A DNA stretch of 64,000 nt from Clostridia bacterium (GTDB lineage: Bacteria > Bacillota > Clostridia > Oscillospirales > CAG-272): the NCBI GenBank assembly GCA_017473085.1, contig JAFUNF010000021.1, forward strand, positions 62,001 through 126,000, in the 5' to 3' direction. The notes below the pieces were generated by a model. It saw only the letters and a program-made list of their open reading frames with translations, was not told the origin of the DNA and made no database searches. Of the stretch, positions 2,521 through 19,518 are shown in pieces. Both the position numbers and the translations under genes were made by a program. The first letter of the stretch is position 1. The number at the start of each line of letters is the position of its first letter.

Positions 2521-5500
2521 ATGAACAACTATTCTAACATGAGCTTTGACCAGTCGACTAAGAAAAGCTTGTTTGGTTATAAGGCTTGGGCACGTATCGC
2601 AATAATAACCAGTATGATAGCTGATTTTGTTGCGTTTCTATATCTTATATTGCTAACGGGAAGCCTTGGCTATGCAATAATTCCCTTGCTTCTTTTGTTG
2701 GTTAGCGGTGTATTTGTTGCCCTCTCCTTTGTAATCGATTATCGCTATGCTTATTCAGTTTGGTTTACAGTGGGATATATACTTCTTCAAACGGTAGGAG
2801 TAATTAGCTTGCTATATTACACAGGTGTGAATGTGGATGTTACTATGAGCACGCCTGCATATATAGTACATATCATTACACATCTATTTGCTATTGCATG
2901 CTACGGCATAGTAGCATATGCCACAAACAAGATAGATAAAAGCAAAAAAAGGACAGGAGTCGCTTTTGTAATAATAGCAACGTTGGCTTCTGTTGCATCC
3001 ATCTTATATACCTGTATCTTTGGCTTTTTCGGACAAAACATAGGCTTGTTTGATAATGAAATGGTTCTTGTTTATGAGAAAAACGAGGACAATACATACG
3101 AGGTAAAGGACATTCTATACGGACGTGGAGATACAGTAGTAATTCCTGAAGCCTTTGATGGCAAGGATGTTACCAGCATTTGTGCAGAGGTATTTTCAAA
3201 GAGAGCAATAAAGAAGATTGTAGTAGAAAACAACAAGGAGCTCAAGGTAGAAAATATAGAGGCACTTTCCACAGAGCTTCAGAATGCTCCACAAATTCAA
3301 GTTCATCTTGAGCTAATGGATTATTACAGGGAGATTCTATTTAACGCTTCAATTGAGCTAAATTCAAAGTCAGCAATGGAGCTTTGTAATCAAGTTACCT
3401 ATATTTCTTGTCCAGAGGATAAGGCTGTTGTAAGCTTTAATTATAATTTTGATAATTTCCCTGAAATGGCAAGAAAAAAGCCTTTTCCAACGATAATACT
3501 TGATAAGGGAAGCATATTCAGCTTAGAAAATTATATTAGCGATGTTTCATATCTTTCCTTTGTTGATGCAGATACAGAGGAAGAAGTGTTAGCCTCATAT
3601 TATCAGGGCGTTGGCTACTACCTAAGCTCTCCAATGATAGATGATAATAAATATCTTGATGGTGTGACAGTAAATTCAAGCATTGATGTTTTACCACTTT
3701 CCTTTGGAAGAGTGTTCCTAATTGAGGTAACAAGTGGAAATGATGAGAAATACGAAGTACCACAGGAGCTAAGCACAATTGTAAAGGATACTGACAAGGG
3801 TAAGCTTGTAAAGGACAATCAGATTTCAACATATATTGCAAGCATTAACAATCTTGTTAAAAGAGAGGGCTTTGACGTTGAATATAAGGTAGATGGCAAC
3901 GCTCTATCTAATGAGACACTGCAAGAGTCCTTAACGAGTAAAAGCAATACAACAATAGTACCTAACTGGACTATTCACACACCTAAAATCACAGGCATAG
4001 ATGGAAGTAAAACATATACCTATGGAGATGAATTACTTTCATTGACAATTAATGCCGAATCTGTTCACAATTTAAAATATCAGCTTGTAGGAAGTGATGC
4101 CTTAATTGGTAATAATAACGTTTTTACAAAGGCTCGTCCCAATCCAGCTGATTCAGACACATACACCTTCAGAGTTTACATTGACGATGAAAAAACAGCG
4201 CTAACAGCTGAAGCAACACAAGAAATTTCAATATTGGTAAATAAGAAGAAGGTGGAGGCTAACTGGACAATACCAGAAAATGCAATCTATAATGAGAATG
4301 CACATTCCGTGAGCGCAATCGTTTCTGATAGCTCTATGGCATTTGAGGATTCCTCAATCGTTGTAACCGATATATTTGATGGCACTGGCGAGAAGGTGAT
4401 TACTCCTGTAAATGCAGGTATATACAGGATGCAGGTTTCCTTTGCCGATGAGGACTTGAAACAGCTTTATACCATAATCAATGCTACACAGGAATTGAAA
4501 ATTGCAAGGTGCAGGGTTGATGCAATATGGACTAACACAAGCCTTATTTACACAGGTAAGCAAAATGCACCAAGTGTGTTAGTTAATGGCGTTAGTCAAG
4601 CTCTTCCAACTAAAATTATTAGTGATAGCATAAACGTAGGCGACTACACTGCATACGTTGAGCTTGTAAACGATATTGACAAATTAAACTATTCAATTAA
4701 CAATATTTCACAGGATTATACAATTTCACCTAAGGTTATAAACGCATATTGGAGCAACTCAACTCTTCAATATAATGACACCGACCAAGCACCTGAAATT
4801 ACAGGCTTTGAGAGTAACTCACTTTGCGAGAATGATACCTTAGATTTAACGCAAATCGAATACAACGGCTTGGAAAGGAATGTAGGTGCAGGCTACACAG
4901 TAGTAGTAAGCGAAAACTTCCAAAACTATGATATTTCAAGCAGTACATCAAGCTGTGATTTCCAAATAACAAAGGCTCCACTTTTGGTAAATGTAGCAAG
5001 CAAGGAAGTAGTCTACGATGGCAAAATCTTTGACGATGTGCTTGATGTTAAATGCGATGGACTTTTAGGTAACGACACACTAACAAGTGTAATTGCACAG
5101 CTTTACTATGGCGACTCCGTTGCTAACGCACAAAACGTAGGCGATTACGTAATTGAGCTATCAGCAAAGAGTCAAGGCGCCGACTTTGGAAACTATGAAA
5201 TTACATATCAACAGGGTCAACGTGTAACAATTGCTCAAGCAAGAGCTAATGTTAAATGGGGAAGTGGCATGCTTACCTATACAAGCCAAGAGCAACACCC
5301 AAGCGTAAGCATAACAGGTGTTAGCCAAAATGCACTTGAGCTTGTGCTGACAGGTGCAATGACAAACGTAGGTCAGGACTACAAGGCAGAAATTGCACTT
5401 AAGAATACACTTGACATACAAAACTACTATATTGCACAAGAGGACTTGAGCCTTGACTACGTAATCAATCCAAGGACACTTACAATTACAGCAGAGGACA

Positions 5501-7413
5501 AGACAAAGACCTATGATAGTAAGGTATATACAGACTTTACCTATACATACCAAGGGTTAGGTACAAACGATACCTTTGAAGAGGTAATTAGCAAAATTGA
5601 ATTTGGCTCTGTTGCAAAGGATGCAATTGACGCAGGCGAATATCCAATTCAAATGACAGCGACCAGTGGAGAAAAGAGAGCCAACTATGATGTTGTGCTT
5701 ATAAATGGTAAGCTTGTAATTAGTAAGGCAACTGCAAGTGTTACTGCTACAAATAATAGCTTTGTATTTGATACAACCGAAAAGCTTCCTACAATCAAAA
5801 TTGATGGAGCTTTGCTTGAGAGTGGCGAGTATGAAAGCGTAAGCTTCAATGCCTATGCAATACAAAATAATCAAAGAGTAACCGCTATAAACGTTGGCAC
5901 ATACAGTGTAGAAATTGAGCTGACTAACGATAACTACAAGATAGGTAGCTACAATATTTCACTTGAAATTACACCAGCCACAGCAAGCGCAGAATGGGGC
6001 GAGACAACCCTTATCTACACAGGCGAAAAACAGCTTCCAACAGCTACTGTAAAGGGAGTTGGTGGCGTATTGGTTGACTTTACTCTTTCAACAGATGACG
6101 GACTTGATGCAATCAACGTAGGTGACTATGTGGCGAAAATCACACTAAACGATAGTAACTATGTGCTTGACAATTACATCAAGGACTTTACAATTACACA
6201 AAAATCCATCACTCCAGCCTTTAAAAATACAACACTTACATATAATGACAAGGCTCAGCTTCCTTCATTCGTATTTATGGGAGCTAAGGGCGAGACAGTT
6301 GAATACAGTGTTGCAACCAAGGACGGACTTGATGCAATCAACGTAGGGGATTATGTAGCAGTTGTTACTCTTAAAAATAACAACTATAAGCTTGATAACA
6401 ATGAAATAGATTTCAAGATTGAGCAAGCTGAGTTAAGTGTTGAATGGGGCAATACAACTCACACCTACAACAAGGAATCATTTGCACCATCAGTAACACT
6501 TAAGGGTGTAAATGATACAGTAGTTGAGTCCTTGGTATCAGGTGCTGAGGTAAATGTAGGAAATAACTACACAGCAACTGTATCAATTAAGAATGTAATC
6601 GACCAACAGAATTACTGCATCAAAGAGGACGACAAGAGTATAAGCTTTGAGATTACACCTGCCACAGCAAGTGTAGAATGGGGCGAGACAACCCTTACCT
6701 ACACAGGCGAAAAACAGTTTCCAACCGCAACTGTAAAGGGAGTTGGTGGCGTATCAGTTGACTTTACTGTTTCAACAGTTGATGGACTTGATGCAATCAA
6801 TGTAGGTGAATATGTAGCAAAAATCACACTAAACGATAGTAACTATGTGCTTGACAGCTACACTGAGGAATTTAAAATTACAGTAGCACAGGTAAGTGTA
6901 AGCTGGGATTACAGTGAGCCATATACCTACAATGGAGCATCTCAAAAGCCAAGCGTAACAGTTACAGGTATAAACAATAATAATGTTGATGTAACAGTTG
7001 AATATAAGGAGGCTGGCACGGAAGCCATAACAGATTCTGTAAATGCAGGCACCTATGTTGCAATAATTACATTAAACGATACAAATTATACAATCGACCA
7101 ATCCGACAAGGAATTAACCTATGTAATCAATAAAAAGGACCTGACAATAACAGCCAATAATCTAACCGTTGATTATACAGGAAATAGCTTTGACGAAAGG
7201 CTTACATACGACCATGAGGGCTTAGCTCAAGGCGAGGAGCTAAGTGATGTAGTAGAAATCAACTTAATAGGCGATGCAATCGGTGCTATCGAGGTAGGAA
7301 GCTACACAATCGAGCTCTCAAAGACAGTAATCAATGACCAAAACTATAATATCATTTTGGCAAACGGCACGCTTACTATCAATCAGGTAGTAAGCGCCCC
7401 TGACCAAGAGTAG
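2521..7413 (+). CDS. 5-TM membrane protein with giant MBG/YDG-repeat ectodomain
   Basis: The protein has 1630 residues. Five hydrophobic segments lie roughly at 24-46, 49-70, 78-98, 110-132 and 146-168. Lysine-rich stretches at the N-terminus and between TM4 and TM5 place those parts inside, which puts the C-terminal ~1450 residues outside the cell. Just after the membrane part is a short leucine-rich-like stretch (VVIPEAF...VFSKRAIKKIVVENN), as in BspA-type surface proteins. From about residue 490 to the end run a dozen or more ~75-residue beta modules of the MBG/YDG type, with recurring Y-tG/Yd-k, aINVGdYvA and NYxi motifs, which are common in bacterial adhesins. There is no LPXTG signal; anchoring is by the N-terminal bundle, which is unusual. 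It sits mid-operon among cytoplasmic-type genes and is probably the surface or sensor part of the system (inference). Confidence 0.85.
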   Translation: MNNYSNMSFDQSTKKSLFGYKAWARIAIITSMIADFVAFLYLILLTGSLGYAIIPLLLLLVSGVFVALSFVIDYRYAYSVWFTVGYILLQTVGVISLLYYTGVNVDVTMSTPAYIVHIITHLFAIACYGIVAYATNKIDKSKKRTGVAFVIIATLASVASILYTCIFGFFGQNIGLFDNEMVLVYEKNEDNTYEVKDILYGRGDTVVIPEAFDGKDVTSICAEVFSKRAIKKIVVENNKELKVENIEALSTELQNAPQIQVHLELMDYYREILFNASIELNSKSAMELCNQVTYISCPEDKAVVSFNYNFDNFPEMARKKPFPTIILDKGSIFSLENYISDVSYLSFVDADTEEEVLASYYQGVGYYLSSPMIDDNKYLDGVTVNSSIDVLPLSFGRVFLIEVTSGNDEKYEVPQELSTIVKDTDKGKLVKDNQISTYIASINNLVKREGFDVEYKVDGNALSNETLQESLTSKSNTTIVPNWTIHTPKITGIDGSKTYTYGDELLSLTINAESVHNLKYQLVGSDALIGNNNVFTKARPNPADSDTYTFRVYIDDEKTALTAEATQEISILVNKKKVEANWTIPENAIYNENAHSVSAIVSDSSMAFEDSSIVVTDIFDGTGEKVITPVNAGIYRMQVSFADEDLKQLYTIINATQELKIARCRVDAIWTNTSLIYTGKQNAPSVLVNGVSQALPTKIISDSINVGDYTAYVELVNDIDKLNYSINNISQDYTISPKVINAYWSNSTLQYNDTDQAPEITGFESNSLCENDTLDLTQIEYNGLERNVGAGYTVVVSENFQNYDISSSTSSCDFQITKAPLLVNVASKEVVYDGKIFDDVLDVKCDGLLGNDTLTSVIAQLYYGDSVANAQNVGDYVIELSAKSQGADFGNYEITYQQGQRVTIAQARANVKWGSGMLTYTSQEQHPSVSITGVSQNALELVLTGAMTNVGQDYKAEIALKNTLDIQNYYIAQEDLSLDYVINPRTLTITAEDKTKTYDSKVYTDFTYTYQGLGTNDTFEEVISKIEFGSVAKDAIDAGEYPIQMTATSGEKRANYDVVLINGKLVISKATASVTATNNSFVFDTTEKLPTIKIDGALLESGEYESVSFNAYAIQNNQRVTAINVGTYSVEIELTNDNYKIGSYNISLEITPATASAEWGETTLIYTGEKQLPTATVKGVGGVLVDFTLSTDDGLDAINVGDYVAKITLNDSNYVLDNYIKDFTITQKSITPAFKNTTLTYNDKAQLPSFVFMGAKGETVEYSVATKDGLDAINVGDYVAVVTLKNNNYKLDNNEIDFKIEQAELSVEWGNTTHTYNKESFAPSVTLKGVNDTVVESLVSGAEVNVGNNYTATVSIKNVIDQQNYCIKEDDKSISFEITPATASVEWGETTLTYTGEKQFPTATVKGVGGVSVDFTVSTVDGLDAINVGEYVAKITLNDSNYVLDSYTEEFKITVAQVSVSWDYSEPYTYNGASQKPSVTVTGINNNNVDVTVEYKEAGTEAITDSVNAGTYVAIITLNDTNYTIDQSDKELTYVINKKDLTITANNLTVDYTGNSFDERLTYDHEGLAQGEELSDVVEINLIGDAIGAIEVGSYTIELSKTVINDQNYNIILANGTLTINQVVSAPDQE
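5967..6865 (+). repeat. Recently duplicated ~205-bp module inside the MBG gene
   Basis: Segments at about 5967-6175 and 6657-6865 are nearly identical at the DNA level, including silent positions, and encode copies of the module that begins ITPATAS.EWGETTL and ends NDSNYVLD. The period is 690 bp (230 residues, three modules). The intervening module at about 6322-6380 shares part of the same sequence (DGLDAINVGDYVA). This points to a recent duplication or gene conversion within the repeat array. Confidence 0.8.
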
Positions 7414-7428: not shown

Positions 7429-8703
7429 ATGAATAATTGCTCAAGCTGTGGGAAGCCATACTCACAAACACTAACAAGCTTTTTAGGTGTTGAGTGTTGT
7501 CCACATTGTCATAAGGGAACATTTCCCAGCAAAAATACAATTTTAAAAATTACTCCCGAGAGCAGATCCTTCTATGCCCAAGCTGAAAGACTTTTCAAGG
7601 AAGGGTATCTTTTAGAAGGGTTCGCCCGTTTTGGATTCAAGAAAAAAGAGGAAGCCCTTGAAAGAGCAGTGGAAAAGAATAAGCATGCTGGCTTAATTCT
7701 TCACGACCCATATGCACTTAACTTACATGCGTTGTTCTATGAAAATGGTTACGTAAAGGATACCAACGACAAAACGGTTTCATGGAAGAAAGCATTGACT
7801 CTTTATGAAACAGTTGGCTTGAATGAAGAAAAGGACAATTCGTTTAAGTGTTATAGCAGTGACAACGAAAGGCTATCTACTGTATCACAAATGGAAACAA
7901 GAGAGAAATATGAAATACAGCATAAGGCGTGTATTGGAATCTTAAGACTCTTAAAAAACACTCCACACCGATTCAAAAATGATGAAACCATCAGCATTGT
8001 AAAGGGCGCATTAAAGAAATTAGATGAAATATCCTCAAGCTACCCCAAGATGATAAGCAAGGTAGAAAAATCGTTAATTGAGTCCACGAAAGATACTTAC
8101 AATAATGATGCACCTAAAAAACCAAATATTATTGGCTTAGAGAAAATAACAGATTTGATTTTGGATATTGTAGCAGATAAAAGTAAGTTCTTTATGCTTG
8201 TGGCTAACGTGACAAAGGAAGCCTTTTGTGATCTTTGTGATTATAAGCGTAAGATTGTTAGAAAAGGAGAAGAGATTCACTTTGGAAATGCAATAAAAAA
8301 AGAGGGCTTGTTGATATATGCAGGTGCTATGGAGAAGGATGACATACATAAAAATCCAATTACCTTCTTAAATAACAAAAGAGGCTTTGTAGCCATGAGC
8401 GACTATAACAATGAACATGGTAAAGAGTTAACCGAAAGAACCGATATCGATATTTACTTTACTATTATAGCAATTGACATGGCAAAGATGCTGAAGGCAT
8501 GTGGTAAAAAGAGCATAAACAGAGAGTTAGACGATATTTTGAAACAAATTGAGAACAATAACTCGAAGATTCTTGATAGTCTCAGTAAGAGTAGTGCATA
8601 TAGCGAGTATAGCTTTACAACTGATGATTTAATTCTTGCAAAAGAGAAGGATCCAATTAAGGCAATAGAAAAAATAATAGAACGCATTTCAGAAATTCAT
8701 TGA
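7429..8703 (+). CDS. Zinc-ribbon protein with helical body
   Basis: This 424-residue protein opens with a clear zinc ribbon: CSSCG at residues 4-8 and CCPHCHKG about 16 residues later. The remainder looks helical. The segment around residues 50-130 (LFKEGYLLEGFARFGF, then DPYALNLHALFYENGY) has the spacing of SEL1/TPR-like helical hairpins. No catalytic motif or membrane segment is visible. It begins 15 bases after the MBG protein with an AAGGAGG site directly in front, and its stop overlaps the upstream region of the next gene. It is the third zinc-binding-type protein in the operon. A cytoplasmic adaptor or scaffold role is possible but unproven. Confidence 0.75.
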   Translation: MNNCSSCGKPYSQTLTSFLGVECCPHCHKGTFPSKNTILKITPESRSFYAQAERLFKEGYLLEGFARFGFKKKEEALERAVEKNKHAGLILHDPYALNLHALFYENGYVKDTNDKTVSWKKALTLYETVGLNEEKDNSFKCYSSDNERLSTVSQMETREKYEIQHKACIGILRLLKNTPHRFKNDETISIVKGALKKLDEISSSYPKMISKVEKSLIESTKDTYNNDAPKKPNIIGLEKITDLILDIVADKSKFFMLVANVTKEAFCDLCDYKRKIVRKGEEIHFGNAIKKEGLLIYAGAMEKDDIHKNPITFLNNKRGFVAMSDYNNEHGKELTERTDIDIYFTIIAIDMAKMLKACGKKSINRELDDILKQIENNNSKILDSLSKSSAYSEYSFTTDDLILAKEKDPIKAIEKIIERISEIH

Positions 8704-8732
8704 TAAAACTATTTATAAAAGGAGAAAAAATT

Positions 8733-10511
8733 ATGGATAACATGAATTTTAAAGAGCCTGAGCAGAAAAACGTAACCCCTGAAAGAGAGGTAATAGCTTC
8801 ACAGATGCAACTTGAAAAATATGAGGACAGGGATATAAAAGACGGCATCGAGCTTAGCGAGATTAAGGATAAAATAGGAGTATACACTAAAAAAATAGGT
8901 GTTAATCCAATCGGCAATGACGATAATTACAAGAACAATCGTGATATTGAGTCAGTTGTAAGAAATGCATATAATGTTGTTCGTCGCATTATGATGGCTC
9001 GTATGTATGAGGATAAGAAGGTATTTCTCATATTCAAGGACAATTCCTATAAAAAGGATATCAAGAAGCTTATTTCACTTATCAATGTTTTGGAAAGAAA
9101 GATGCAATTCAATTCCAAGGAAATAGATAAGACTGTTGAGGCAATTGACAGAGTTGTGGATAGGATACAAGAAAAATATCAGATTCCACCTGACGAAAAG
9201 AACCAAATTGTATCACTTGACAAATATATCAAGGACACAATGCTTTGCTTAAGAAAGACTCAAGAGATAAAGAATAGGATTGATTCTCGTATATACAAAA
9301 ATGCAATGGAAATTCTTTACAAGATGAGAGTTCAGCTCAATACCACCATCTGTGATGGCTTCTCTGTAAATGCTGAGAAGTGCTACGAAAAGGTAGCTAT
9401 GGCAATTGGAAACTTAAGAGAAAAGGCAATTGTGGATATCTATTGTGATAATACAGAGCTTGAAAATGCTCTTGAAGTAATACAAGGTGAGTGGGCAAAT
9501 CTTAACTCAATTCCTAAGAACAAGGATAGAATTGATGAGCCAACACCAATTGTCTATAACGATGCAATCAGCTTCGCAAAGGAGTATGAGCCTGTTGAAA
9601 GACTCGTAAGCACCTTCTTTAATGTTGTAAATGAGTTTATGGAAAAATATGAGAAGCTAAGTGAGCCAACCGAAAATCAAATCAACGAAAAGGAAGATGA
9701 GAGGCAAAGAATAATTCAACAGCTTGATGAGCTTGACGAGAATGCAATAGATGGATTGATTACAGTTGATCAGCATATAAGAGAGTCAAGAAAGCTAAAG
9801 GATAGAATGTATTATATCGAGGACGAAATTATGGACCTTGAGGATACCCTTGATGCCGACGAGATGGAAATTGAGAATATGCGTGACATAATGCGTCCAA
9901 TAGACGAAATGCGTAGATGTAAGGATAAAAGCTCCCGCCTTGGCTTGATAACTGAAATAGTTGCTATGTTCAAAGAGGGACAGGATATCAACTACGCAGA
10001 AATTATCACCCTTTTACAGTCAGTTAACACTCTTAGCAACGAGCAAAGCATTGTAATCAGTATGAAGATTAAGGCATTAATCGATTCATACAGACAAAAA
10101 AGCGAAAGAGTTGCTGAGGTTAGTGATAGATTTAGAAAAATTATGGACGACTTGAACAAGGAAACCGTAAGAAGCAATCAAAAACATGCCGAGGCAAGAC
10201 ACGCTTACAATTTAAAGAAGGCTGAAAGACGTCTTCAAAGACAAAAGGATAGAGAAGAGTCGCGCAAGAAAAGAGAGCATGAGCGTGCAGAGTACGAGAA
10301 GGCAATGAACGAGCTACGTGGAGAGGGTGATCTTAACAATGCTGGCGAGAAAAATGCAGAAAGAGATCGTACTTACCTTGAAAACCTTAACAAGAAGAGA
10401 AATGAAAAGTATATGCAGAATAATGGTCAGGAGGATCCACTAATGGGTCAAAAATCTGGACTTGCTAAGAAGCGTATACCTAATTCTGGAAATGTAGGCG
10501 AAGAAAACTAA
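8733..10511 (+). CDS. Long coiled-coil protein
   Basis: The open frame reaches back to 8700, but the ATG at 8733 sits behind an AAAGGAGA site, so I take that start and 592 residues. The protein is almost wholly helical and highly charged. Strong heptad-like segments lie around residues 290-420 (rich in E, D, R and I/L) and 455-555, where a K/R/E-rich helix (AERRLQRQKDREESRKK) dominates. The C-terminal ~60 residues look disordered. No enzyme motif or membrane segment is visible. In an operon with a Vps4-like ATPase, a long helical protein could be a filament, scaffold or remodelling substrate, but nothing in the sequence proves that. Its start lies 29 bases after the preceding stop. Confidence 0.75.
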   Translation: MDNMNFKEPEQKNVTPEREVIASQMQLEKYEDRDIKDGIELSEIKDKIGVYTKKIGVNPIGNDDNYKNNRDIESVVRNAYNVVRRIMMARMYEDKKVFLIFKDNSYKKDIKKLISLINVLERKMQFNSKEIDKTVEAIDRVVDRIQEKYQIPPDEKNQIVSLDKYIKDTMLCLRKTQEIKNRIDSRIYKNAMEILYKMRVQLNTTICDGFSVNAEKCYEKVAMAIGNLREKAIVDIYCDNTELENALEVIQGEWANLNSIPKNKDRIDEPTPIVYNDAISFAKEYEPVERLVSTFFNVVNEFMEKYEKLSEPTENQINEKEDERQRIIQQLDELDENAIDGLITVDQHIRESRKLKDRMYYIEDEIMDLEDTLDADEMEIENMRDIMRPIDEMRRCKDKSSRLGLITEIVAMFKEGQDINYAEIITLLQSVNTLSNEQSIVISMKIKALIDSYRQKSERVAEVSDRFRKIMDDLNKETVRSNQKHAEARHAYNLKKAERRLQRQKDREESRKKREHERAEYEKAMNELRGEGDLNNAGEKNAERDRTYLENLNKKRNEKYMQNNGQEDPLMGQKSGLAKKRIPNSGNVGEEN

Positions 10512-10520
10512 AAAATTATT

Positions 10521-10548
10521 TTCCAAGGGGCAAGCTTGCCCCTTGGAA
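10521..10548. promoter_or_regulatory. Perfect 28-bp palindrome in the operon
   Basis: A 14+14 perfect inverted repeat with centre AAG/CTT lies directly after the coiled-coil gene and before the ribosome site of the HExxH gene. On the sense strand it lacks a following T-run, so it is not a normal terminator. As RNA it would form a very stable hairpin ending about 17 bases before the start codon. It could be a processing or stability element, a translational control hairpin, or a protein-binding site. Confidence 0.7.
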
Positions 10549-10565
10549 GAAAGGTAGAAAATCCA

Positions 10566-12530
10566 ATGATTGATTTTACGAGTAAATTCGAAAGAATACT
10601 TAACAAGGCAAACGATACTTATCATAATTCCGTTGACAAGGATGAGCTTATCATTGCACACAAGAGTCTTAGTCCGATTATCAAGGCTAAGGACCCTGAG
10701 GGAAAATATGCAGAGCTAATTACCAACGCAAACGGATTAAGTATTCGTATAGGTATAAAAAGAATAGCACTCGACGCAATAAAGGACAATCTTGAGTGTA
10801 ATATTGAGTGGTCCTTGGAAAAGCTTGCAGAGCTTGAGGGCTCTGCAAACGAAAAGGGCTTTAGCAAAACCTCAGCACTTGCTGTACGCGTTAAAAATTT
10901 AATTACCAGTCTTCAATGGATATATACACAAAGCATGAAAATAAGCTCCAGTTATCTGAACGATAGAGGAAGAAACAACGAAAGCATTATTACAAAAGCT
11001 AAGGAGCAATATAGCGAGCTTTACAAGGAATGTGATATGTTGCCAAGCGAGGCAGACGTTTTTGTAGGAGTTTCTTTTCTTGACATACGTGCAGAAACAC
11101 GTGAATTTATAGATAGCTTAATTGAGGAGGCTGAGGGAATACACAAAAGACTTACCTCTGACAGAATAAACGAAAGAATAAACGGGATAATAAATAGTCT
11201 TCCAAGTGAATGGAAAACTGGGTACAGCTTTTCTCCAACCGTGTCAAACAACAATAACAAAATGATGTTAGTGCTAACACCATTTAAGGATGAGTTCTCC
11301 TTCCTTGCATACTCTTATGCAAGACAAAACGGCGCTCGTGCAACTGCTATTGATATTAATTCAAAGGTTTTTGGTGGTTGTCCTGAGAGCGATATAAATG
11401 CTATATTTGAGTATTTAGGCACAACTGCTGACGTCTTAGCGATTACAGGACTTGCTATGTACCACGACGACAACAAGCCCTCAATTCTAAGGGCACTTTA
11501 CAAGATAGCATGTAGCAAAAAGGGAATAGGTGTGTTTATTCATGATTATAATAGCACACTATCTCTTTGGCAAGAGATAGAGGACGCACTTCCTAAGGCA
11601 TATGACATATATTATATGTACCTAAAGCTTCCATCCTTCAGAGCAACTGTGGATGCAATAAAGGACGCAAGTGTGCGTGAAATTGATGAAATTTTTATTA
11701 AAAAGTGCTGTGCATATCTTGGATACTTAGGAGTAAACGAGGTAATTCAAAAGCTTAAGGAGGATTACACCTTCGATTATACAGAGCTTGCTGAGCAAAG
11801 GTCCCTTGAGAATTACAGTAAAATTTTAACCTATATTATGAACCTGAAGAGTCAAGCTCAGCTTGTAGATTCAAGCTGGGGTATATCCTTCGATTGCTTT
11901 GAGGACAAAAGCTTCGAGCCAAGGAGGGACTTTGGTGGATATGATTACGATACAAAAAGAATACTCAATCCACAAAACCTAAAAATGATAATAGATATGG
12001 AAAATATCTTGCTTCCTGCGAAGTGTGGACTTGCTGTAAATTATTGCTTGCTTTGTGGAGACGATGCATCTGTATGGAAGGAGCTGTCAAGAGAAGACCA
12101 GCTTTACAGATTATCAATAGCTAATAAGACAGTTGCAAAGCTTCTCAATACTCAATACGACCCAGAGGTTGTTATTAAAAGCATTGAGGGTAAGGCTGGT
12201 GCATATTGTTCTGGTGGTGGAAAGCAGATAGTTTATTCTGAAGCATCACTTAACAATTATAGCTGGCTTGCTGATGCTGTTTGCCACGAAATGTTCCACG
12301 CATTTCAGCATACTGCAATCCACGGAGGCTGGAAGAGATGGTACGCGAGCGAGCTTATGGTAAACGAGCAAAGAGTGGCTGAATGGGCATCCTGTGGTCA
12401 AAAATATATATCAATAGATGAGAACCAAACAGCATATGAAATTCAAGGCTATGAGGTGGATGCTCGTGTATTTGCCTCAGAGGCAATGGACGGCTTATCA
12501 AAGCATTGGTCAAGCCTAAAATTACTCTAA
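10566..12530 (+). CDS. HExxH zinc-metallopeptidase-like protein
   Basis: I chose ATG 10566 (654 residues) because AAAGGTAG precedes it; the frame also opens upstream at a TTG inside a palindrome. Residues ~570-585 contain HEMFHAFQH, the HExxH zincin motif with an extra downstream histidine. About 25 residues later come SELMVNEQRVAEWA and then YEVDARVFA, each offering a glutamate that could be the third zinc ligand. This arrangement fits a gluzincin. The N-terminal half is helical (coiled-coil-like from ~30 to 230) and may be a recognition or oligomerisation part. There is no signal peptide, so the protease domain should act in the cytoplasm unless otherwise exported. Operon context: between the coiled-coil protein and the helicase, 15 bases from the latter. 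Substrate unknown. Confidence 0.75.
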   Translation: MIDFTSKFERILNKANDTYHNSVDKDELIIAHKSLSPIIKAKDPEGKYAELITNANGLSIRIGIKRIALDAIKDNLECNIEWSLEKLAELEGSANEKGFSKTSALAVRVKNLITSLQWIYTQSMKISSSYLNDRGRNNESIITKAKEQYSELYKECDMLPSEADVFVGVSFLDIRAETREFIDSLIEEAEGIHKRLTSDRINERINGIINSLPSEWKTGYSFSPTVSNNNNKMMLVLTPFKDEFSFLAYSYARQNGARATAIDINSKVFGGCPESDINAIFEYLGTTADVLAITGLAMYHDDNKPSILRALYKIACSKKGIGVFIHDYNSTLSLWQEIEDALPKAYDIYYMYLKLPSFRATVDAIKDASVREIDEIFIKKCCAYLGYLGVNEVIQKLKEDYTFDYTELAEQRSLENYSKILTYIMNLKSQAQLVDSSWGISFDCFEDKSFEPRRDFGGYDYDTKRILNPQNLKMIIDMENILLPAKCGLAVNYCLLCGDDASVWKELSREDQLYRLSIANKTVAKLLNTQYDPEVVIKSIEGKAGAYCSGGGKQIVYSEASLNNYSWLADAVCHEMFHAFQHTAIHGGWKRWYASELMVNEQRVAEWASCGQKYISIDENQTAYEIQGYEVDARVFASEAMDGLSKHWSSLKLL

Positions 12531-12545: not shown

Positions 12546-15500
12546 ATGAATAAGAATGACATTATCAAAAAATACATAGTAGAGTTCCTTCACGTAAACG
12601 AGGAAGCCAATAATCGTATGATGGACCTTTACGGAAATGGTAAGACTACCTATATCACTATTGATATAAGTGATAGTAGGTCAAATCAAGACAAGCTTTA
12701 TGATCGTATTGTATCAAGAATAAAGGATAGATATGGTAAGCCCGCAATTACCGCACTTCGTGATAGCTCCTTACAGGGGACTGTTGGTAACGTTGATGAA
12801 ATTAACGTGCTTGATTGGACCATTTACAGAAACGAAGGAGCAGACAATGACACAAAGCTTAGACTATTAAATAAGCTTGCAAACAACTCCTTAGCAGAGC
12901 TTAAGCAAAAGGGCGTAAACTCCTTGTTTATGTCTGTTGGTGCAATAAAATGGGATGTACCAGACCCTAATGATAATCAAAAGACAATTAGCATAACAAC
13001 CCCACTCTTAATTTTCCCAATTAAGCTTGTTCGTGCAGTGGGACTAATGCCTGTTATGATTGATTTTGTAGCAGATGACATAAGATTAAACCCTTGTCTT
13101 ATTGAAAAAATTAATCGTGTGTATAATGAGGAGCTTGCGACAAAATTCCCAAGACCAAGACTTGTTGAGGGCTCAGTAGATATAAATGCTCTTGATATTG
13201 TAGATTATTTTTCGAGTGTAAATACATATATCGGTGAAAATTTCAGAGATTCAAGAAGAGAATTTAAGCTACTAAATAATAGTGTGGCTATTTCAAGCTT
13301 TAACAGTCTTGATATAGCTATGTACTATGACCTTGTAAACCATCAAAAGCAGCTTGAGGATAGCCAAATGATAGAAAAGCTATTTTCAAATGTTGCAAGA
13401 ATAGATAACGAGCAAATCGAAAAGCCACTTATCACATTGCCAGCTGATACTGTTCAGGAGAAAATTCTTGCAAGAGCAGTAAACAATGATGATATAATAA
13501 TTAAGGGCCCTCCAGGTACAGGTAAAACACTTACGATTGCTAACCTTATAGCATCGCTTATGGGTGCAGGTAAAAGGGTAATGTTCGTTTCTGCTAAAAC
13601 CTCAGCACTTGCAGAGGTATGTAATAAGCTACCTGAGTGCTTAAGACCATTTGTGCTGGAGCTTTTCTGTGAAAGCGAGGCAGAGGCAGCAAACTTCAGC
13701 GTTGTTGACCTGACAAACTCCCTAAGAAGGGCAAGAGATGCAGAGCCTGTTAAGGATGAAAATCTTCTTTTACATGAAATTCAAGGCTATAGAAATAGGC
13801 GTGACGAGGCTGTCAACTATCTCAATAGCTATAAGGAATACTACTTTACAAATCCCGATCCCGTTTCAGGTCATGCCTTCTATTCTACAATCAACAAGGC
13901 ATTGAAGTATGACGGCGACCCACAGCTAAGAGGTGCATTTATTGGAAGAACCTCAAGAATAACAGTTGAGGATTACGACAAAATGCACAGTGCCACAGCT
14001 CTTTGCGAAACTAATCTAAACCATATAGCAAACAACGGTCAAAAAATAGCTGTTGATAGTCCTTGGTATGATGCTGAGGCTAAGGTTACTCCATTGATGA
14101 TTGAAAACGAAATCAAGAGGGTAGTAAGTGGACTTGAGGTTATTTCGAAAAGGATTAGAGAATTTCTTGACGAACTGGGTATTAAGGACAAGGACGACAC
14201 ACTACCACTTTCCTTGTTTATGTCAATTATTGAGGCTGAGTTCAGCAAAGAGGAAATTAATAAAATTATTGTAGGCAACATTCGTCCATCACTGCTTCAG
14301 TCACTTGAGGAAAAGACAATGGAGTTCTATATGGACACGAGCCTTGACGATTATCTTACTAAAGCAATTAACTATAAGCTAACTCTATCCTGTCAGGATG
14401 AGGAGGGCGTTAAAAAGGCAATTGAACAGCTTAAAGATAAGGCTAAGTCAAAGAAGAGTGTAAGAGAGCTTCGTGAAATAAAAGGCTCTATCGAAAAGAT
14501 GAACCTTGCAGTTTCCGACTCCTGCGACATCGTTTTAGATGTATTCGAGAGATATAGCGAAAAGAACAAGGAGCTCGAAGAAATCGACGAAGAAATTGAC
14601 AAGCTTATCGTTGTTGTAGGAAAGCAAAGAGATACTCGTCGTGAGCTTCTCGAAAAGCATTTTGAAACTCTTGCCAAGTATGCTCAAAAGGACATTCAAA
14701 AATTCGGCATTTTTGATAGTAAGGCTAAAAAGGCTTACGAGGAAATTGCACGACTTCCTATCAATAAGACACCTTCAATCAACGAGGTAACTAAGGCTTG
14801 TCAGCTTTATGAAAAGCAAAAGATTACGGAAAAGGAAAAGCAGAGCGTGTTCAATCGCTTTGTTGAAATGTTCGGTGATGAGGTTACTGAGGAGGATGTA
14901 ATCAAGGTAGAGTCCTTCATTAGCGTCGGTGGCGATAAGGCTTCAAAAAAGATAATTCTCAACAATCTTTTAGAGGAAGCTGTTCTTATGGAAAAGGCAA
15001 GAGGTATGATAAGCTCTTCCCTTGAGAGAATAGATGACGAACTTAACGATAAAAATGCAAATGAGCTTTCAAGCTATTTGATTTGTGCACTTGAAAGAGC
15101 AAGAATTGAGGACCTTTATAACTTAGCATGTAAGGAACTGGGACTTGCGAACAAGGAGCTTAAGGACTTAGAGGAGCCAAATACGATAATTGCTCTAAGA
15201 AAGCTTACTGAATACTTTACGTACAATCAGACAAGAGTTGATACAATTTGCAGGTTTATAAAGGAAAATGAAAACGTTTTAAATGGTTTGGTTGCGTTAA
15301 AGGAATTTGCTCTTGAATACGAGCTTAATCCTAAATATACCGACATAGAGAGCTTAACTCTTGCTGATATAGATCGCTTTATTGAGGATATTGCAGATGC
15401 AAGAATCAGTAACGCCTGTCAACAGCTAAAGCAAACAATGAACGAGGATACTCACGGATGCTTTAAGGCATTCCTTGAATATTTTGCAACAGGAAAGTCT

Positions 15501-17159
15501 CCACTTCCAAAAAGAGGCGAGTTAAATATGACACAGCTTCTTGAATATGCATACTTTAATGCATGCACTATTGATAGAGAGGGTGCGTTAACAAAGCAGG
15601 GCAATGCTGTTTATGATGGCACCAAGCTAAGAGCAATGGAGAAAAACCTTATTTCTGCAAGCACAATGCTTGCAAGAGGTCAAGCTAAATATATTGCTCA
15701 TAAGCTGAGCATTAAGGACAAGACGTCGCCAAAATATGCATTTCTTAACAATGAAAAGCCATCTAATATAAGTGCAAGAGTATTCTTTAAGGAAAACGCT
15801 AATGCTATACTTTCTCTTGCAAGATGTATGGTATTGTCTCCATACTCTGTAAGTGTATTTATGAAGCCACAGGAATATTTCGATTATGATGTGCTAATTG
15901 TTGACGAGGCATCTCAGCTTCACGCAAGAGAAATTTTGCCTTGTGCTATTCGTGCAAAGCAGGTAGTTTTAGTAGGTGACCAAAACCAAATGCCACCAAT
16001 TAACTACTTCCAAAGAAAGGATAATGCACCACGCAAGGAGGACGATGAGGAAGAGGGTAGCAATATGTCACAGGCAGATTCAATCCTTGACCTTGCCATT
16101 AAGAATAAGTCTATTGCTACTGCTGAATTGCTATGTCACTATCGTAGTAGAAATGAATCCTTGATTGCATACTCACAAAAGAGATACTATGAAAGCATGA
16201 CAACATTCCCAACTGCAAATCCTGAAGAGGATGGACGTGGCTTGGTAGATGTATTTGTTGATGGTGGACACATAGATAGCGTAAACGTCATTGAGGCAAG
16301 AAAGGTTGTAGAGCTTATAGAACAACATTTCGATACTTACTTCGACGAGGATGCACAGATGCTTCGTGAATCGCTTGGTATAGTAGTATTTGGTCAAAAA
16401 CAGCTTGAGAGTATCGCAAGGCTCATAGATAGAAGCCCAGTAAGAGACAAGATAAAGAAGGCGAGAACAAACACAAGAGATAATCCAGACAAGACTTATT
16501 TCATCACAGCCGTTGATGCGGTACAGGGTCAGGAAATTGAGCATTTAATCATCTCCTTGACTTACTGTAAGAGAGAGGCTGATGGTAAGGTTAAGCAAAG
16601 CTTTGGTATGCTCAACAGAACTGATAATGGCGAGCGACTTGGTGAAAGAATATTCAACGTAGCTGTAACTCGTGCAATTAAGTCCTTGACGTTTGTTCAC
16701 TCAGTTCACTCACACGAAATTACAAAGCCAACACTTTCTCACCTTCGCGAGTATCTCGAAATGCTTGAATCCTTGGGTAGCAGAGATGAAGAAGCACAAC
16801 CAAAATTTGTTTCTAATAAGGACAAGGTTGACGAATTTGCTCTGAGCGTTAAGAAAGCAATTACTGAGCTTATTGCTGACGAGGATAGAATAGTTTATGG
16901 TTATGGTGTAACAGAAAAATCCTTGAGAATTCCAATTGTAATTCTGAATAAGGACAAGACCCATGCCGACCTTGGTATATTCTGCGAAACTGATATAACA
17001 GACGGAGAAAGATACACAGACACTTGGGTTAACTATCCTGAAACCCTTGAAGCACGTGGCTGGAAGCTTCACAGAATGTATATCCACGACTGGTATTTCA
17101 ATCGTGAGGCAGAGCTAAAGGCACTAAAGAACGCAATTCAAGCATTTATCACAGAATAA
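12546..17159 (+). CDS. UPF1-like SF1 helicase with C-terminal nuclease-like domain
   Basis: The protein has 1537 residues. Walker A KGPPGTGKT lies near residue 320 and motif II (VDEASQLH, followed by LVGDQNQMPP) near 1119. Late SF1 motifs are AVDAVQGQE (~1322) and NVAVTRA (~1370). The DEAS box and split architecture match UPF1/Dna2-like helicases such as the DUF4011 family. Between the two RecA halves is a ~700-residue helical and coiled-coil insert. The last ~120 residues (from FALSVKKAI, through RYTDTW and ARGWKLHRMYIHDWYF) match the layout of the Vsr/DUF559-like nuclease domain that often ends such helicases. The usual acidic metal-binding residues look partly replaced (ADLGIFCE), so catalysis is uncertain. 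A role in nucleic-acid processing or defence is inferred. Confidence 0.85.
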   Translation: MNKNDIIKKYIVEFLHVNEEANNRMMDLYGNGKTTYITIDISDSRSNQDKLYDRIVSRIKDRYGKPAITALRDSSLQGTVGNVDEINVLDWTIYRNEGADNDTKLRLLNKLANNSLAELKQKGVNSLFMSVGAIKWDVPDPNDNQKTISITTPLLIFPIKLVRAVGLMPVMIDFVADDIRLNPCLIEKINRVYNEELATKFPRPRLVEGSVDINALDIVDYFSSVNTYIGENFRDSRREFKLLNNSVAISSFNSLDIAMYYDLVNHQKQLEDSQMIEKLFSNVARIDNEQIEKPLITLPADTVQEKILARAVNNDDIIIKGPPGTGKTLTIANLIASLMGAGKRVMFVSAKTSALAEVCNKLPECLRPFVLELFCESEAEAANFSVVDLTNSLRRARDAEPVKDENLLLHEIQGYRNRRDEAVNYLNSYKEYYFTNPDPVSGHAFYSTINKALKYDGDPQLRGAFIGRTSRITVEDYDKMHSATALCETNLNHIANNGQKIAVDSPWYDAEAKVTPLMIENEIKRVVSGLEVISKRIREFLDELGIKDKDDTLPLSLFMSIIEAEFSKEEINKIIVGNIRPSLLQSLEEKTMEFYMDTSLDDYLTKAINYKLTLSCQDEEGVKKAIEQLKDKAKSKKSVRELREIKGSIEKMNLAVSDSCDIVLDVFERYSEKNKELEEIDEEIDKLIVVVGKQRDTRRELLEKHFETLAKYAQKDIQKFGIFDSKAKKAYEEIARLPINKTPSINEVTKACQLYEKQKITEKEKQSVFNRFVEMFGDEVTEEDVIKVESFISVGGDKASKKIILNNLLEEAVLMEKARGMISSSLERIDDELNDKNANELSSYLICALERARIEDLYNLACKELGLANKELKDLEEPNTIIALRKLTEYFTYNQTRVDTICRFIKENENVLNGLVALKEFALEYELNPKYTDIESLTLADIDRFIEDIADARISNACQQLKQTMNEDTHGCFKAFLEYFATGKSPLPKRGELNMTQLLEYAYFNACTIDREGALTKQGNAVYDGTKLRAMEKNLISASTMLARGQAKYIAHKLSIKDKTSPKYAFLNNEKPSNISARVFFKENANAILSLARCMVLSPYSVSVFMKPQEYFDYDVLIVDEASQLHAREILPCAIRAKQVVLVGDQNQMPPINYFQRKDNAPRKEDDEEEGSNMSQADSILDLAIKNKSIATAELLCHYRSRNESLIAYSQKRYYESMTTFPTANPEEDGRGLVDVFVDGGHIDSVNVIEARKVVELIEQHFDTYFDEDAQMLRESLGIVVFGQKQLESIARLIDRSPVRDKIKKARTNTRDNPDKTYFITAVDAVQGQEIEHLIISLTYCKREADGKVKQSFGMLNRTDNGERLGERIFNVAVTRAIKSLTFVHSVHSHEITKPTLSHLREYLEMLESLGSRDEEAQPKFVSNKDKVDEFALSVKKAITELIADEDRIVYGYGVTEKSLRIPIVILNKDKTHADLGIFCETDITDGERYTDTWVNYPETLEARGWKLHRMYIHDWYFNREAELKALKNAIQAFITE

Positions 17160-17172: not shown

Positions 17173-17880
17173 ATGAAAAAAGAACAAAAAGCACCACTTG
17201 GTGCAAGACCGATGAACGACGGAAAAATTCACATAGATGAAAAAGCACTTCTTTTAGCTAAAATTGAGGACAAGGAAAAAGAATCAGACGAAAGATTGGC
17301 TGATTTAGTGGAAAGGCTAAAGGGTATTGAGGAATCTCATAGCGCAAATAAAAGCGTGCTCAGAGAAACTATAATTAGTGTAATTAATATGATTGCACAA
17401 TTCAAAGAACTCATTCAAGAGGTTAGAGTTGTTCAAATAGCCTTTGAGACACTAAGCACTACTCTTGGTATTGTAGAGGATGTTTTCAAGGTAATTGATT
17501 TGATAATTGATGGTCAAATCAAGGAGGACCCAGGTGCATTTTCTTCCTTCAAAATGTCAATAAAGGTAAACAGAATGGGAAGATCTATTCGCAGACGCTT
17601 TTCAAGAATGCAACAAACTATCAATGTTCTGCCTAAAATGCTGAGCTTTATGAGTGGCTTTAACAAGACATTAGGTAGCTCTATGGGTAAAATGAACAAG
17701 AAGAGCAAAAGGGACGTGGATAATTTTCAGGAGTCTGGCTCTGGGCTTACTCCAAGTGCACTTGACATGCTTAAGGATGCAGGCATAGATTATGAACCCA
17801 AAAAACCTTTAGAACCTAAGGAAAAGAAGTCAGACGATGGAGACGACGGTAACAGAGACGATCCATACGGAGGCATCTAA
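17173..17880 (+). CDS. Small helical protein next to Vps4-like ATPase
   Basis: This 235-residue protein has no family I can name. Residues ~25-105 form charged then hydrophobic helices. A basic patch follows (NRMGRSIRRRFSRMQQ, ~135-150), then a methionine-rich helix (LPKMLSFMSGFNKTLG). The last ~45 residues are a disordered acidic tail ending DDPYGGI. This order of core helices, a Met-rich helix and a flexible acidic tail recalls ESCRT-III subunits, and the Met-rich part is loosely like CHMP2/Vps2 sequences. However, in ESCRT-III the basic region is N-terminal, so the resemblance is incomplete. The gene starts 13 bases after the helicase stop behind a TAGGAGAA site and is followed by the Vps4-like ATPase. 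A membrane- or filament-associated partner of that ATPase is my inference. Confidence 0.7.
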   Translation: MKKEQKAPLGARPMNDGKIHIDEKALLLAKIEDKEKESDERLADLVERLKGIEESHSANKSVLRETIISVINMIAQFKELIQEVRVVQIAFETLSTTLGIVEDVFKVIDLIIDGQIKEDPGAFSSFKMSIKVNRMGRSIRRRFSRMQQTINVLPKMLSFMSGFNKTLGSSMGKMNKKSKRDVDNFQESGSGLTPSALDMLKDAGIDYEPKKPLEPKEKKSDDGDDGNRDDPYGGI

Positions 17881-17892
17881 TCAAAGCATTTT

Positions 17893-17938
17893 TGAGGATC
17901 TCTGTGTGCTACGCCAGTAACACACAGAGAATATCTCA
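17893..17938 (+). promoter_or_regulatory. Stem-loop between helical-protein and AAA genes
   Basis: Within the 85-base gap a 10-bp perfect stem (17899-17908 with 17921-17930) is flanked by an outer TGAG/CTCA pairing. No T-run follows, so it is unlikely to end transcription completely. It may set the mRNA ratio of the upstream genes to the ATPase through processing or partial attenuation. Confidence 0.6.
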
Positions 17939-17965
17939 TAACTAACAAAAAACGGAGGCAAACAA

Positions 17966-19201
17966 ATGGGAAAGGTAAATAGAACAGACAACAATGGTTA
18001 CGATGCTGTTGACGAGAAAAACAGAAGACGTGACGAGCAAAATACCGAGCTTCAAGCAAACATAGCCGAATGTCTTAGACTAAAGGACGAAATAATAAAA
18101 AAGAAAAAAGACAGTAAGCAAATGTCTCCTGAAGAAAAGGTGGAGATAAGAAAGCTTTATAACAAGATATTTAGTCTTGCGAAAAAGATAACTGAAATGG
18201 CTACCTGTCAGGAAACTATTAAAATACACGAAAAGCTTCAAAAGACAGCTGCTGCAAGAGCAAGAGAATATGGCTCTGCAATAGTTGGCGAAAGCCCAAA
18301 GACAAAGATGGAGGACATTCAAGGTCTTAGTAATGTAAAGGAGCTTATAAACAGCTTCTTGTTTATGCTTAAGAATAATGAGCTTGTAGAGTACTACAAC
18401 GTTGAGGGTGGATGCAACATGCTTATGTATGGTGCCCCTGGTACAGGTAAAAGTATGTTTGCAGAGGCTGTTGCAAATGAAATGGGACTTCCTATTTACA
18501 AAATAACACCTGCTGACATTTTCAAGCCATACGTGGGTGAATCCGAGGCGTCTGTAAGAAATCTTTTTGCAGAGCTTGATACCTGTGATGATGGTGCAGT
18601 TTTGTTTATAGATGAATGTGAGTCAATATTTAGTGTAAGAAAAGCAGACACAAACGAGGCAAAGGAAGCTGTTACAACTGAGCTTTTGCAAGCAATGAAC
18701 GGATTTGGTGTTGACAGAAGAAAAATAATCATAATGGCAGCAACCAACTGTCCTGAAAAGATAGACCCTGCTTATCTTCGTTATAAGCGTTTCTCTCATA
18801 TAGTACACGTTACACCGCCAGATACAGATGCAATAAGAGCATTAATAAAGAGAAAGCTAAGAGTTGACAATACCGAAGCAAAATGGGGCAAGCCTGTGCC
18901 TGAAAACAAAAAGCCTATAAAATTGAACACAGACGTAACAGTAGATTATATTACAAATGAGCTAATAAAAAGACAGAAGTATATAAACGGTTATCCAATG
19001 TTTTACTACACTCCTGCCGACATAAACGGAATTATCGAGGAGGCTTGTCGTCAAGCACTTGTTTATATTCAAGAAAACAAGCTTTCAGAACCAATCTCAC
19101 TTTCGAAAGAAATGTTCAATAAAGCCTTTGATAAGGTTCCACCAAGTGTAACAAGAGAAAAAATTCAAGCACTTGAAAGATTCAGAGAAAATAATAACTA
19201 A
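17966..19201 (+). CDS. Vps4/VAT-like classic AAA ATPase
   Basis: This 411-residue protein carries a single AAA module. Walker A GAPGTGKS lies at ~155-162, a pore-loop-like KPYVGES at ~188-194, Walker B VLFIDECES at ~211-219 and sensor AATNCPE at ~257. The lid has the TPADINGII-EA pattern. The C-terminus VPPSVTREKIQALERF is the hallmark PSVs helix of the CDC48/VAT/Vps4/katanin clade. Residues 1-110 are helical and charged, about the size of an MIT-type three-helix domain plus linker, though I cannot prove that fold. The clade's paired arginine finger after sensor 1 is altered to YLRYKRF. The site GGAGG precedes the ATG. It is the last gene of the operon. Such enzymes thread or disassemble protein assemblies; the partner is probably the neighbouring helical or coiled-coil protein (inference). 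Confidence 0.85.
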   Translation: MGKVNRTDNNGYDAVDEKNRRRDEQNTELQANIAECLRLKDEIIKKKKDSKQMSPEEKVEIRKLYNKIFSLAKKITEMATCQETIKIHEKLQKTAAARAREYGSAIVGESPKTKMEDIQGLSNVKELINSFLFMLKNNELVEYYNVEGGCNMLMYGAPGTGKSMFAEAVANEMGLPIYKITPADIFKPYVGESEASVRNLFAELDTCDDGAVLFIDECESIFSVRKADTNEAKEAVTTELLQAMNGFGVDRRKIIIMAATNCPEKIDPAYLRYKRFSHIVHVTPPDTDAIRALIKRKLRVDNTEAKWGKPVPENKKPIKLNTDVTVDYITNELIKRQKYINGYPMFYYTPADINGIIEEACRQALVYIQENKLSEPISLSKEMFNKAFDKVPPSVTREKIQALERFRENNN

Positions 19202-19202
19202 C

Positions 19203-19236
19203 AAAAAACTCCTGTGGATATCCACAGGAGTTTTTT
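19203..19236 (+). terminator. Rho-independent terminator of the first operon
   Basis: A perfect 17+17 inverted repeat centred on GGATATCC starts two bases after the AAA gene stop and ends in a run of seven T. It closes the nine-gene operon. Confidence 0.9.
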
Positions 19237-19489: not shown

Positions 19490-19518
19490 TTGACTTAAAA
19501 GCTATATTTTGATATAAT
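19490..19518 (+). promoter_or_regulatory. Sigma-A promoter of the MoxR/vWA cluster
   Basis: TTGACT at 19490-19495 and TATAAT at 19513-19518 are separated by 17 bases, a near-consensus promoter 67 bases before the first gene of the cluster. It shows that this cluster is transcribed separately from the preceding operon. Confidence 0.85.

Follow-up and report, generated by a model that had tools for sequence, protein, structure and literature searches.

We analysed a window of 64,000 nucleotides from a Clostridia bacterium (NCBI GenBank assembly GCA_017473085.1, contig JAFUNF010000021.1, positions 62,001 to 126,000, forward strand), in which two neighbouring genes, here called H and I, had been read as a possible bacterial counterpart of the endosomal sorting complex required for transport (ESCRT), which cuts membranes in archaea and eukaryotes, with I as a Vps4-like ATPase and H as its ESCRT-III-like substrate. 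Gene H (17173–17880, + strand) encodes 235 residues and gene I (17966–19201, + strand) encodes 411 residues and a classical AAA+ ATPase. Each is an open reading frame with a clear ribosome site of the AGGAG/GGAGG type ahead of it; 13 bases separate the upstream helicase gene G from H, and 85 bases separate H from I. The same order, H followed by I, was found at two related loci, L008 in a metagenome-assembled genome (MAG) from goat cecum (G874) and L009 in a MAG from roe deer colon (G875). An AAA protein in G879, a genome of the window's genus, has the same coordinates as that of L008, and the two were counted once. H and I were thereby confirmed as genuine adjacent genes, conserved side by side, as the sequence-only reading had held. 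They are the last two genes of a rare, collinear ten-gene operon with the order J-K-B-C-D-E-F-G-H-I, identical in all three Clostridia genomes carrying it (the window's genome G000, G874 and G875). The conserved pairing claimed for H and I thus held in three of three loci, but as part of this operon and not as a free-standing pair; since it comes with one collinear operon in three related genomes, the pairing is less telling than it might seem.

The identity of H to its two orthologs was approximately 40–41% and 47–48%, and that of I approximately 77% and 63–65%. Third codon positions differed most often in both genes. Between the window and L008, the rates of nonsynonymous (dN) and synonymous (dS) substitution were 0.52 and 1.77 for H and 0.15 and 1.49 for I, with dS near saturation; for H of the window and L009, dS was not computable. 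These patterns fit purifying selection on both proteins.

The sequence places I among the classical AAA+ ATPases of the CDC48/Vps4 superfamily, with a single AAA module. It consists of an N-terminal region (residues ~1–105), the AAA module (Pfam AAA at residues 152–282, E-value 2.2e-32), a lid with two extra segments and a Vps4_C-type end. The three orthologs share, without change, the Walker A motif GAPGTGKS, FIDE of the Walker B motif, AATN, arginines 272 and 275 and the pore-loop tyrosine; the roles of these positions follow from the AAA family, and the protein is very likely an active ATPase that forms a ring. The Vps4_C model (cut-off 21.3 bits) was passed by two of the three orthologs, those of the window (22.1 bits, residues 362–408) and L008 (23.6 bits), and that of L009 fell under the cut-off (16.6 bits). 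All three end in PPSV followed by T, T or S, so that the single-module AAA protein with a PSV(T/S) C-terminus, as first noted, was borne out. There was no AAA_lid_3 match for I and no Pfam family over cut-off for residues 1–110, a region that is probably helical. The NCBIfam models CDC48 (133.6 bits), PAN (120.8), FtsH (109.8) and CdvC (109.2) all matched far below their curated cut-offs.

Protein H is small and, judging from helices assigned by eye from the breaks between them, probably helical. Its apparent layout comprises a charged helix (residues ~22–54, ~33 residues), a hydrophobic helix (~58–117, ~60 residues), an elbow with the sequence DPGAF, a basic amphipathic helix (~124–152, ~29 residues) and a variable, flexible tail. 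Within the basic stretch at 127–152, R137, S138, I139, R141, R142 and F143 are invariant among the orthologs, and seven methionines lie between residues 128 and 174. All three orthologs share the tail segment L(T/S)PxA(L/I)xM and end in Gly-Ile. Net charge in 40-residue windows ranged from -7 to +4 before residue 120 and peaked at ~141–180 (+10 in the window, +8 in L008, +10 in L009). The basic patch and methionine-rich helix noticed at the outset were thus retrieved; the acidic tail proved a property of the window copy and, more mildly, of L009, that of L008 not being acidic (-1 and +3 in 40-residue windows). No family in Pfam, PADLOC or NCBIfam was over cut-off for H, and PHROGs gave weak matches that differed between orthologs. 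We discarded a phage tape-measure protein (PHROG match at 2.9e-4) and a ferritin-like DUF2383 protein (16.8 bits, cut-off 30.8), each suggested by a single ortholog with no support across the others, as well as a GrpE-like co-factor of J, for which no GrpE-type match was found.

The 85 bases between H and I contain a stem-loop (17893..17938, + strand) with a predicted folding energy of -23.4 kcal/mol (z -6.0). The gap is also folded in L008 (-22.9 kcal/mol, z -5.4) and L009 (-22.6 kcal/mol, z -3.4); among 200 shuffles, zero, zero and one folded as well for the window, L008 and L009, respectively. Only 29 of 97 alignment columns of this gap are common to all three loci, and the stem-loops are unlike in sequence. 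A second stem-loop lies between E and F (10519..10550, + strand), with 17-nt arms that are 100% complementary in the window and gap energies, calculated without shuffles, of -25.1 (window), -30.7 (L008) and -23.2 kcal/mol (L009). Since it overlaps the longer form of F, with TTG 10536 inside the stem-loop, and the relatives start at the later position, we moved the start of F from TTG 10536 to ATG 10566. These were the only strong stem-loops among the eight window gaps folded, and both recur in L008 and L009. The other six window gaps gave -3.2 kcal/mol (J-K) or 0 kcal/mol (K-B, B-C, C-D, F-G and G-H); F-G and G-H were unstructured in L008 and L009 too, and for the gaps from J-K to C-D the folding covers the window alone. 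The stem-loops likely serve transcript segmentation or dosage control. With them the message would fall into three parts, J-E, F-H and I, and such a split would allow H to be made in excess of I. A terminator-like palindrome (19203..19236, + strand) closes the operon after I. A promoter-like site of the next operon follows at 19490–19518, with 11 of 12 matches and TG before the second hexamer; the nine promoter-like sites in the region are close to the shuffled mean of 7.3 (standard deviation 2.8).

The remaining genes of the operon, those in the window all on the + strand, include two helicases. Gene J, upstream of the window, encodes 692 residues with weak Hsp70 similarity (HscA 28 bits, DnaK 20 bits). 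Gene K, a SNF2-like helicase of 990 residues, starts upstream at G000:C20:59733 and reaches the window with its 3' end (1..705), where an open reading frame at 61–705 represents its cysteine-rich end. The 922-residue upstream piece of K matched BrxHI/II with 82 bits; it scored 75 bits with DrmD and 65.5 bits with RapA, well short of the cut-off in each case. Gene B (731..2476) encodes a cysteine-rich protein of 581 residues with no family over cut-off, and gene C (2521..7413) a protein of 1630 residues with hydrophobic N-terminal segments (by eye) followed by MBG repeats (Pfam MBG_2 1.4e-17, MBG_3 3.7e-9), probably a surface-exposed membrane protein; both have homologs at all three loci. Gene D (7429..8703, 424 residues) has N-terminal cysteine pairs, a weak PADLOC JetB match (14.8 bits) and a DAM-like match under cut-off (14.7 bits versus 27). 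It overlaps gene E (8700..10511), which encodes 603 residues with no family, charged and coiled-coil-like by eye. Gene F (10566..12530) has an HEMFH motif (by eye), on the strength of which alone we regard it as a putative zinc metallopeptidase; it matched no Pfam family, and PDB gave weak ferritin/Dps-type matches only (E-values of 0.3 and above). Gene G (12546..17159) encodes 1537 residues with a superfamily 1 (SF1) helicase, a DUF4011 region and an MTES_1575 nuclease-like end: Pfam AAA_11 (2e-14) and DUF4011 (4.4e-9) were over cut-off, and MTES_1575 was just under it (33.5 bits, cut-off 38.2). With 397 bits to PDC-S37, 189 bits to Hhe and 409 bits to ProA (cut-off 1500), G appears related to the DUF4011-type helicase-nucleases, though not an equivalog, its scores falling short of the equivalog cut-offs of ProA and Hhe.

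The operon is chromosomal, and several of its flanking genes are common to all three carriers. A MoxR/DUF58/vWA operon, BatA-like by inspection (window 19585–29133), lies directly downstream in each of them; with matches of its first gene in 12 of the 19 genus genomes, it has a wider distribution than the ten-gene operon. A transfer RNA gene, tRNA-Gln (ctg), is located ~290 bases ahead of the operon's first gene (L038:7249–7322, minus strand). A mobile hotspot at this site was not supported: the interval from tRNA-Gln to the MoxR operon in genome G882 holds core-like genes (by eye), and the flanks are shared by the three carriers.

The distribution of the operon is narrow. A pattern-based scan of one genome per species across 84,980 species, which detects close relatives only, yielded three loci: L008, L009 and a different AAA in Desulfonema magnum (L010:9344–10783), where an AAA module with a PSV C-terminus stands behind an apparent part of a protein-kinase domain (by eye). 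At E-values up to 1e-30, I had matches in two of 146 family, 24 of 391 class and three of 19 genus genomes. Full-length I was found only in the window's own genome in the family and class sets, and in that genome and G879 in the genus set. The 23 other class matches comprised two AAAs of a sibling operon described below (G775 and G791), a TPR-type AAA (G629) and 20 AAAs that sit within longer frames, the seven inspected among these 20 having FtsH-type pore loops; the other family match (G069) is a third sibling-type AAA, and the third genus match (G880) is a partial one inside a 1361-residue frame. For H, the 146 family genomes gave two matches (its own and one at E-value 7.5e-4 with two internal stops) and 394 order genomes gave three (its own and two weak ones with internal stops); none was found in phages, plasmids or viral contigs. 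F was detected in one of the 146 family genomes, its own, and not in plasmids or viral contigs. I was absent from viral contigs. It matched 821 plasmid and 35 phage records, all at <60% identity, of which seven and zero, respectively, cover at least 80% of I; having inspected three of these regions, we took the matches as generic AAA proteins. No description of the ten-gene operon was found in the databases and literature searched, including DUF4011/ProA loci and Hsp70-like/SNF2 defence loci. The analysis thus exposes a rare, multi-ATPase operon in gut Clostridia, the last two genes of which form a clean motor/partner pair.

Three other Clostridia genomes, one from the window's family (G069) and two from the same class (G791 and G775), carry the sibling operon (L035:4666–8424; L036:5435–9301, minus strand; L037:3684–7644). 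It encodes an SPFH/Band-7 protein with zinc ribbons, a protein of 123–140 residues, in two of three cases another of 115–117 residues, and then E1 (201–211 residues), E2 (197–201 residues) and an AAA protein (366–374 residues). SPFH was identified by Pfam in G069 (7.9e-14) and G775 (3.1e-14) and by eye in G791. Both operons place small helical proteins before a single-module AAA in hosts of the same family or class; the sibling operon differs in its SPFH protein, in E1 and E2, in an AAA that, in the two cases scanned, aligns to CdvC over nearly its whole length, and in showing no helicase in the stretches read. The two sibling AAAs scanned matched CdvC with 212 bits (cut-off 650), at residues 6–361 in G775 and 25–363 in G069.

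E2 has the charge dipole of an N-basic, C-acidic protein. It aligned to Snf7 nearly end to end in two of three cases (12.0 and 6.4 bits, E-values 0.16 and 8.5), far under the cut-off of 27.3, and whole-genome Snf7 searches returned E2 alone in G069, E2 plus a second match in G775, and no match in G791. Several results speak against an ESCRT-III/Vps4 assignment of these proteins. E2 had better weak matches elsewhere, such as bacHORMA_1 (18.3 bits, G775) and DUF3825 (13.5 bits, G069), E1 matched SecA_SW in G069 (21.8 bits), the chains that E2 retrieved from PDB were of protein A and none was ESCRT-III, and CDC48 outscored CdvC for both sibling AAAs, as did PAN for one. No MIT match was obtained in the sibling AAAs; the N-terminus gave a weak PDB match (E-value 0.19) to chitin synthase 1 (2mpk), an MIT domain. 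None of the six E1 and E2 proteins contains a strict MIT-interacting motif (MIM) of type MIM1 or MIM2. E2 (A5) was not found in 329 phylum genomes, a sample without any genome known to have it, nor in viral contigs, plasmids or phages, and we found no open-access paper on this operon, supplementary tables and most subscription papers lying outside the search. On sequence features, the sibling operon is a candidate bacterial ESCRT-III/Vps4 system, with the ESCRT-III assignment unproven; it fits the idea first raised for H and I better than they do, and it offers a direct way to test whether complete ESCRT-III/Vps4 systems exist in bacteria.

For H and I themselves, we tentatively favour a reading in which I serves as a remodelling motor with H as its target, within a nucleic-acid-directed, defence-like complex. 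The N-terminal region of I would recognise H, and the pore of I would pull on the flexible tail with its L(T/S)PxA(L/I)xM and terminal Gly-Ile, taking H or an H-containing complex apart and resetting it. As an adaptor or scaffold, H would use its basic amphipathic helix to bind a polyanion, for which nucleic acid that K and G work on is the likeliest candidate and the membrane near C a possible one. The stem-loop between H and I would permit the unequal amounts that a substrate and its motor need. The helicase types of K and G suggest a defence-like complex working on nucleic acids together with the surface protein C and the metallopeptidase-like F; with two helicases and a nuclease-like end as neighbours, nucleic acids are a more plausible target than membranes, though C is a membrane protein by eye. 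This reading is favoured by the gene order common to all three genomes, the conserved catalytic positions of I, the two recurrent stem-loops and the contrast between a fast-diverging H and a conserved I, within which the R137–F143 segment of H is nonetheless nearly invariant, and by the resemblance of K to the DrmD, BrxH and RapA helicases and of G to the anti-phage helicases PDC-S37, Hhe and ProA.

Several points weigh against it. Contact between H and I, the status of H as substrate and an anti-phage role of the operon are inferences, as is the binding of a polyanion by H, which is read from charge alone. The defence-type matches of K and G lie far below NCBIfam cut-offs, and RapA, one of those of K, is an RNA-polymerase helicase. 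The operon, chromosomal and with flanks common to its carriers, shows no visible sign of mobility. A role in nucleic-acid handling is not an obvious one for C and F. In Pseudomonas aeruginosa, a DUF4011 gene belongs to the conserved core that flanks a defence hotspot and not to the cargo (PMC10250203).

The alternative that survives best, which we still hold to be unlikely, assigns I to a defence system as a regulatory ATPase like TRIP13 or IetA, with a client such as E, F or G and with H as a separate structural subunit. PADLOC matches of the AAA module of I to IetA (96 bits) and TRIP13 (40 bits) and the many other possible clients in the operon agree with this, but the matches span the AAA core common to such proteins, no HORMA or serine-protease family was among the matches listed (Pfam, run without the upstream piece of K, and PADLOC), and it is H that directly precedes I. 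A housekeeping chaperone-like machine without an immune role, in which the Hsp70-like J and the AAA protein I, with H as co-factor, serve assembly or quality control of C, would accord with the weak HscA and DnaK scores of J, the large MBG-repeat protein and the shared flanking genes, but it seems improbable as it leaves two helicases and a nuclease-like domain unexplained and full-length AAA was found in only two of 19 genus genomes.

We regard as similarly doubtful the sequence-only reading's own proposal of an ESCRT-III/Vps4-type module, in which H would polymerise on the inner membrane via a hairpin and the basic helix, and I, with an MIT-like N-domain, would pull on its tail, perhaps at C. 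The gene order of substrate then motor, the Vps4_C scores, the amphipathic nature of the basic helix and the presence of the membrane protein C are all compatible with it. So is the helix layout of H (by eye), which resembles the hairpin, elbow and alpha4 described for ESCRT-III in PMC8281802. Against this, none of the three H orthologs matched Snf7 or PspA in Pfam at E-values up to 10, and H has no clear similarity to E1, E2 or PspA. The helices of ESCRT-III are basic in the N-terminal part and its C-terminal half is acidic; the basic block of H lies in the wrong half (~120–180), and the caution that its order of basic and core regions departs from ESCRT-III was well founded. None of the three H proteins contains a strict MIM1 or MIM2 motif; a loose resemblance to MIM1 was found once, in the window copy, where it lies in the N-terminal helix.

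For I, the expected MIT domain was not recovered: no match was obtained in the window's genome or for residues 1–110, nor was an MIT-named chain among 22 PDB matches, with a model that passes its cut-off in two of 14 control genomes and also misses the sibling AAAs. The CdvC alignment of I begins only at profile position 53, past the MIT region. CDC48 outscores CdvC for I, but likewise for the sibling AAAs. The pore loop of I is FKPYVGESE, whereas that of the sibling AAAs is SKWVGESE; Vps4 has a KW-type loop. In a tree built from 19 rows, 18 of them different and none a named Vps4, I stands on a long branch of its own, well away from the Vps4-like AAAs of the sibling operon. Its neighbour there is an archaeal-virus AAA, a grouping of weak support that was flagged as long branches meeting.

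These negatives are weak, since the same tools miss likely positives. No protein of the 14 control genomes, which include that of Sulfolobus acidocaldarius, scored above the Snf7 cut-off, and neither E1 versus E2 nor E2 versus PspA was clearly detected. Three-row profile-profile comparisons were uninformative because E1 versus E2 fails there too. In pairwise comparisons, mean z was 0.4–0.5 for H against E2 (nine pairs; H of L009 against E2 of L005 reached 3.0 and 3.4, which we treated as chance), 0.9–1.3 for E1 against E2 (nine pairs, up to 3.7) and ~0 for E2 against PspA (three pairs). What stands of the proposed pair is a CDC48/Vps4-superfamily AAA with a Vps4_C-type end, a small upstream partner linked to it at all three loci and an ESCRT-III-like helix layout by eye; similarity to Snf7 or PspA, a strict MIM and a KWVGESE-type pore loop were not found. 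H and I may work like ESCRT-III and Vps4, and we class neither H as ESCRT-III nor I as Vps4. The combined version, a diverged bacterial ESCRT-III/Vps4 module within a helicase-nuclease defence operon whose H polymers, turned over by I, would remodel or seal the inner membrane once a nucleic-acid arm is triggered, is the least probable of all, and would, if true, represent membrane-repair immunity driven by an ESCRT-type motor in a bacterium.

Compared with known systems, I shares with Vps4 and CdvC a single classical AAA module, a PSV-containing Vps4_C-type end, a probably helical N-terminus and a small upstream partner gene, and differs in the undetected MIT domain, the KPYVGESE loop, the two extra lid segments, the missing AAA_lid_3 and its long branch in a small tree. 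H resembles the ESCRT-III superfamily (Snf7, CdvB, PspA and Vipp1) in size, probable helix order and flexible tail, and is set apart by the lack of detected profile similarity, a different charge layout and no strict MIM. Bacterial Vps4-like AAAs in which Snf7 is displaced by a TPR/6TM protein, and bacterial Snf7/PspA genes in operons with AAA+ proteins, are described in PMC11237479; the present locus likewise has a bacterial Vps4-like AAA and differs from the loci described there in the partner H and in the ten-gene operon with helicases. An AAA with a TPR-like N-terminus (by eye) beside TPR/membrane genes (L024:15–2370) resembles those bacterial Vps4-like loci.

Among defence systems, K is weakly similar to the DrmD and BrxH helicases of the defence island system associated with restriction-modification (DISARM) and of bacteriophage exclusion (BREX). 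These systems combine a signature helicase with a methyltransferase and other core genes; if the DAM-like match of D, which is under cut-off, is set aside, neither a methyltransferase nor another core gene turned up among the operon proteins scanned. The anti-phage system IetAS consists of IetA and the serine protease IetS; the IetA match here is confined to the AAA region of I, and no serine-protease family was found among the Pfam-scanned operon proteins. Coiled-coil nuclease tandems (CoCoNuTs) join an Hsp70-like protein to a UPF1-like SF1 helicase (PMC11090510), as the weakly Hsp70-like J and the SF1 helicase G do here. CoCoNuT and McrBC systems are marked by the McrB GTPase and McrC; no McrB or McrC family was among the matches listed for the operon proteins scanned. 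As in PDC-S37, ProA and Hhe, G combines an SF1 helicase with DUF4011 and a nuclease-like end.

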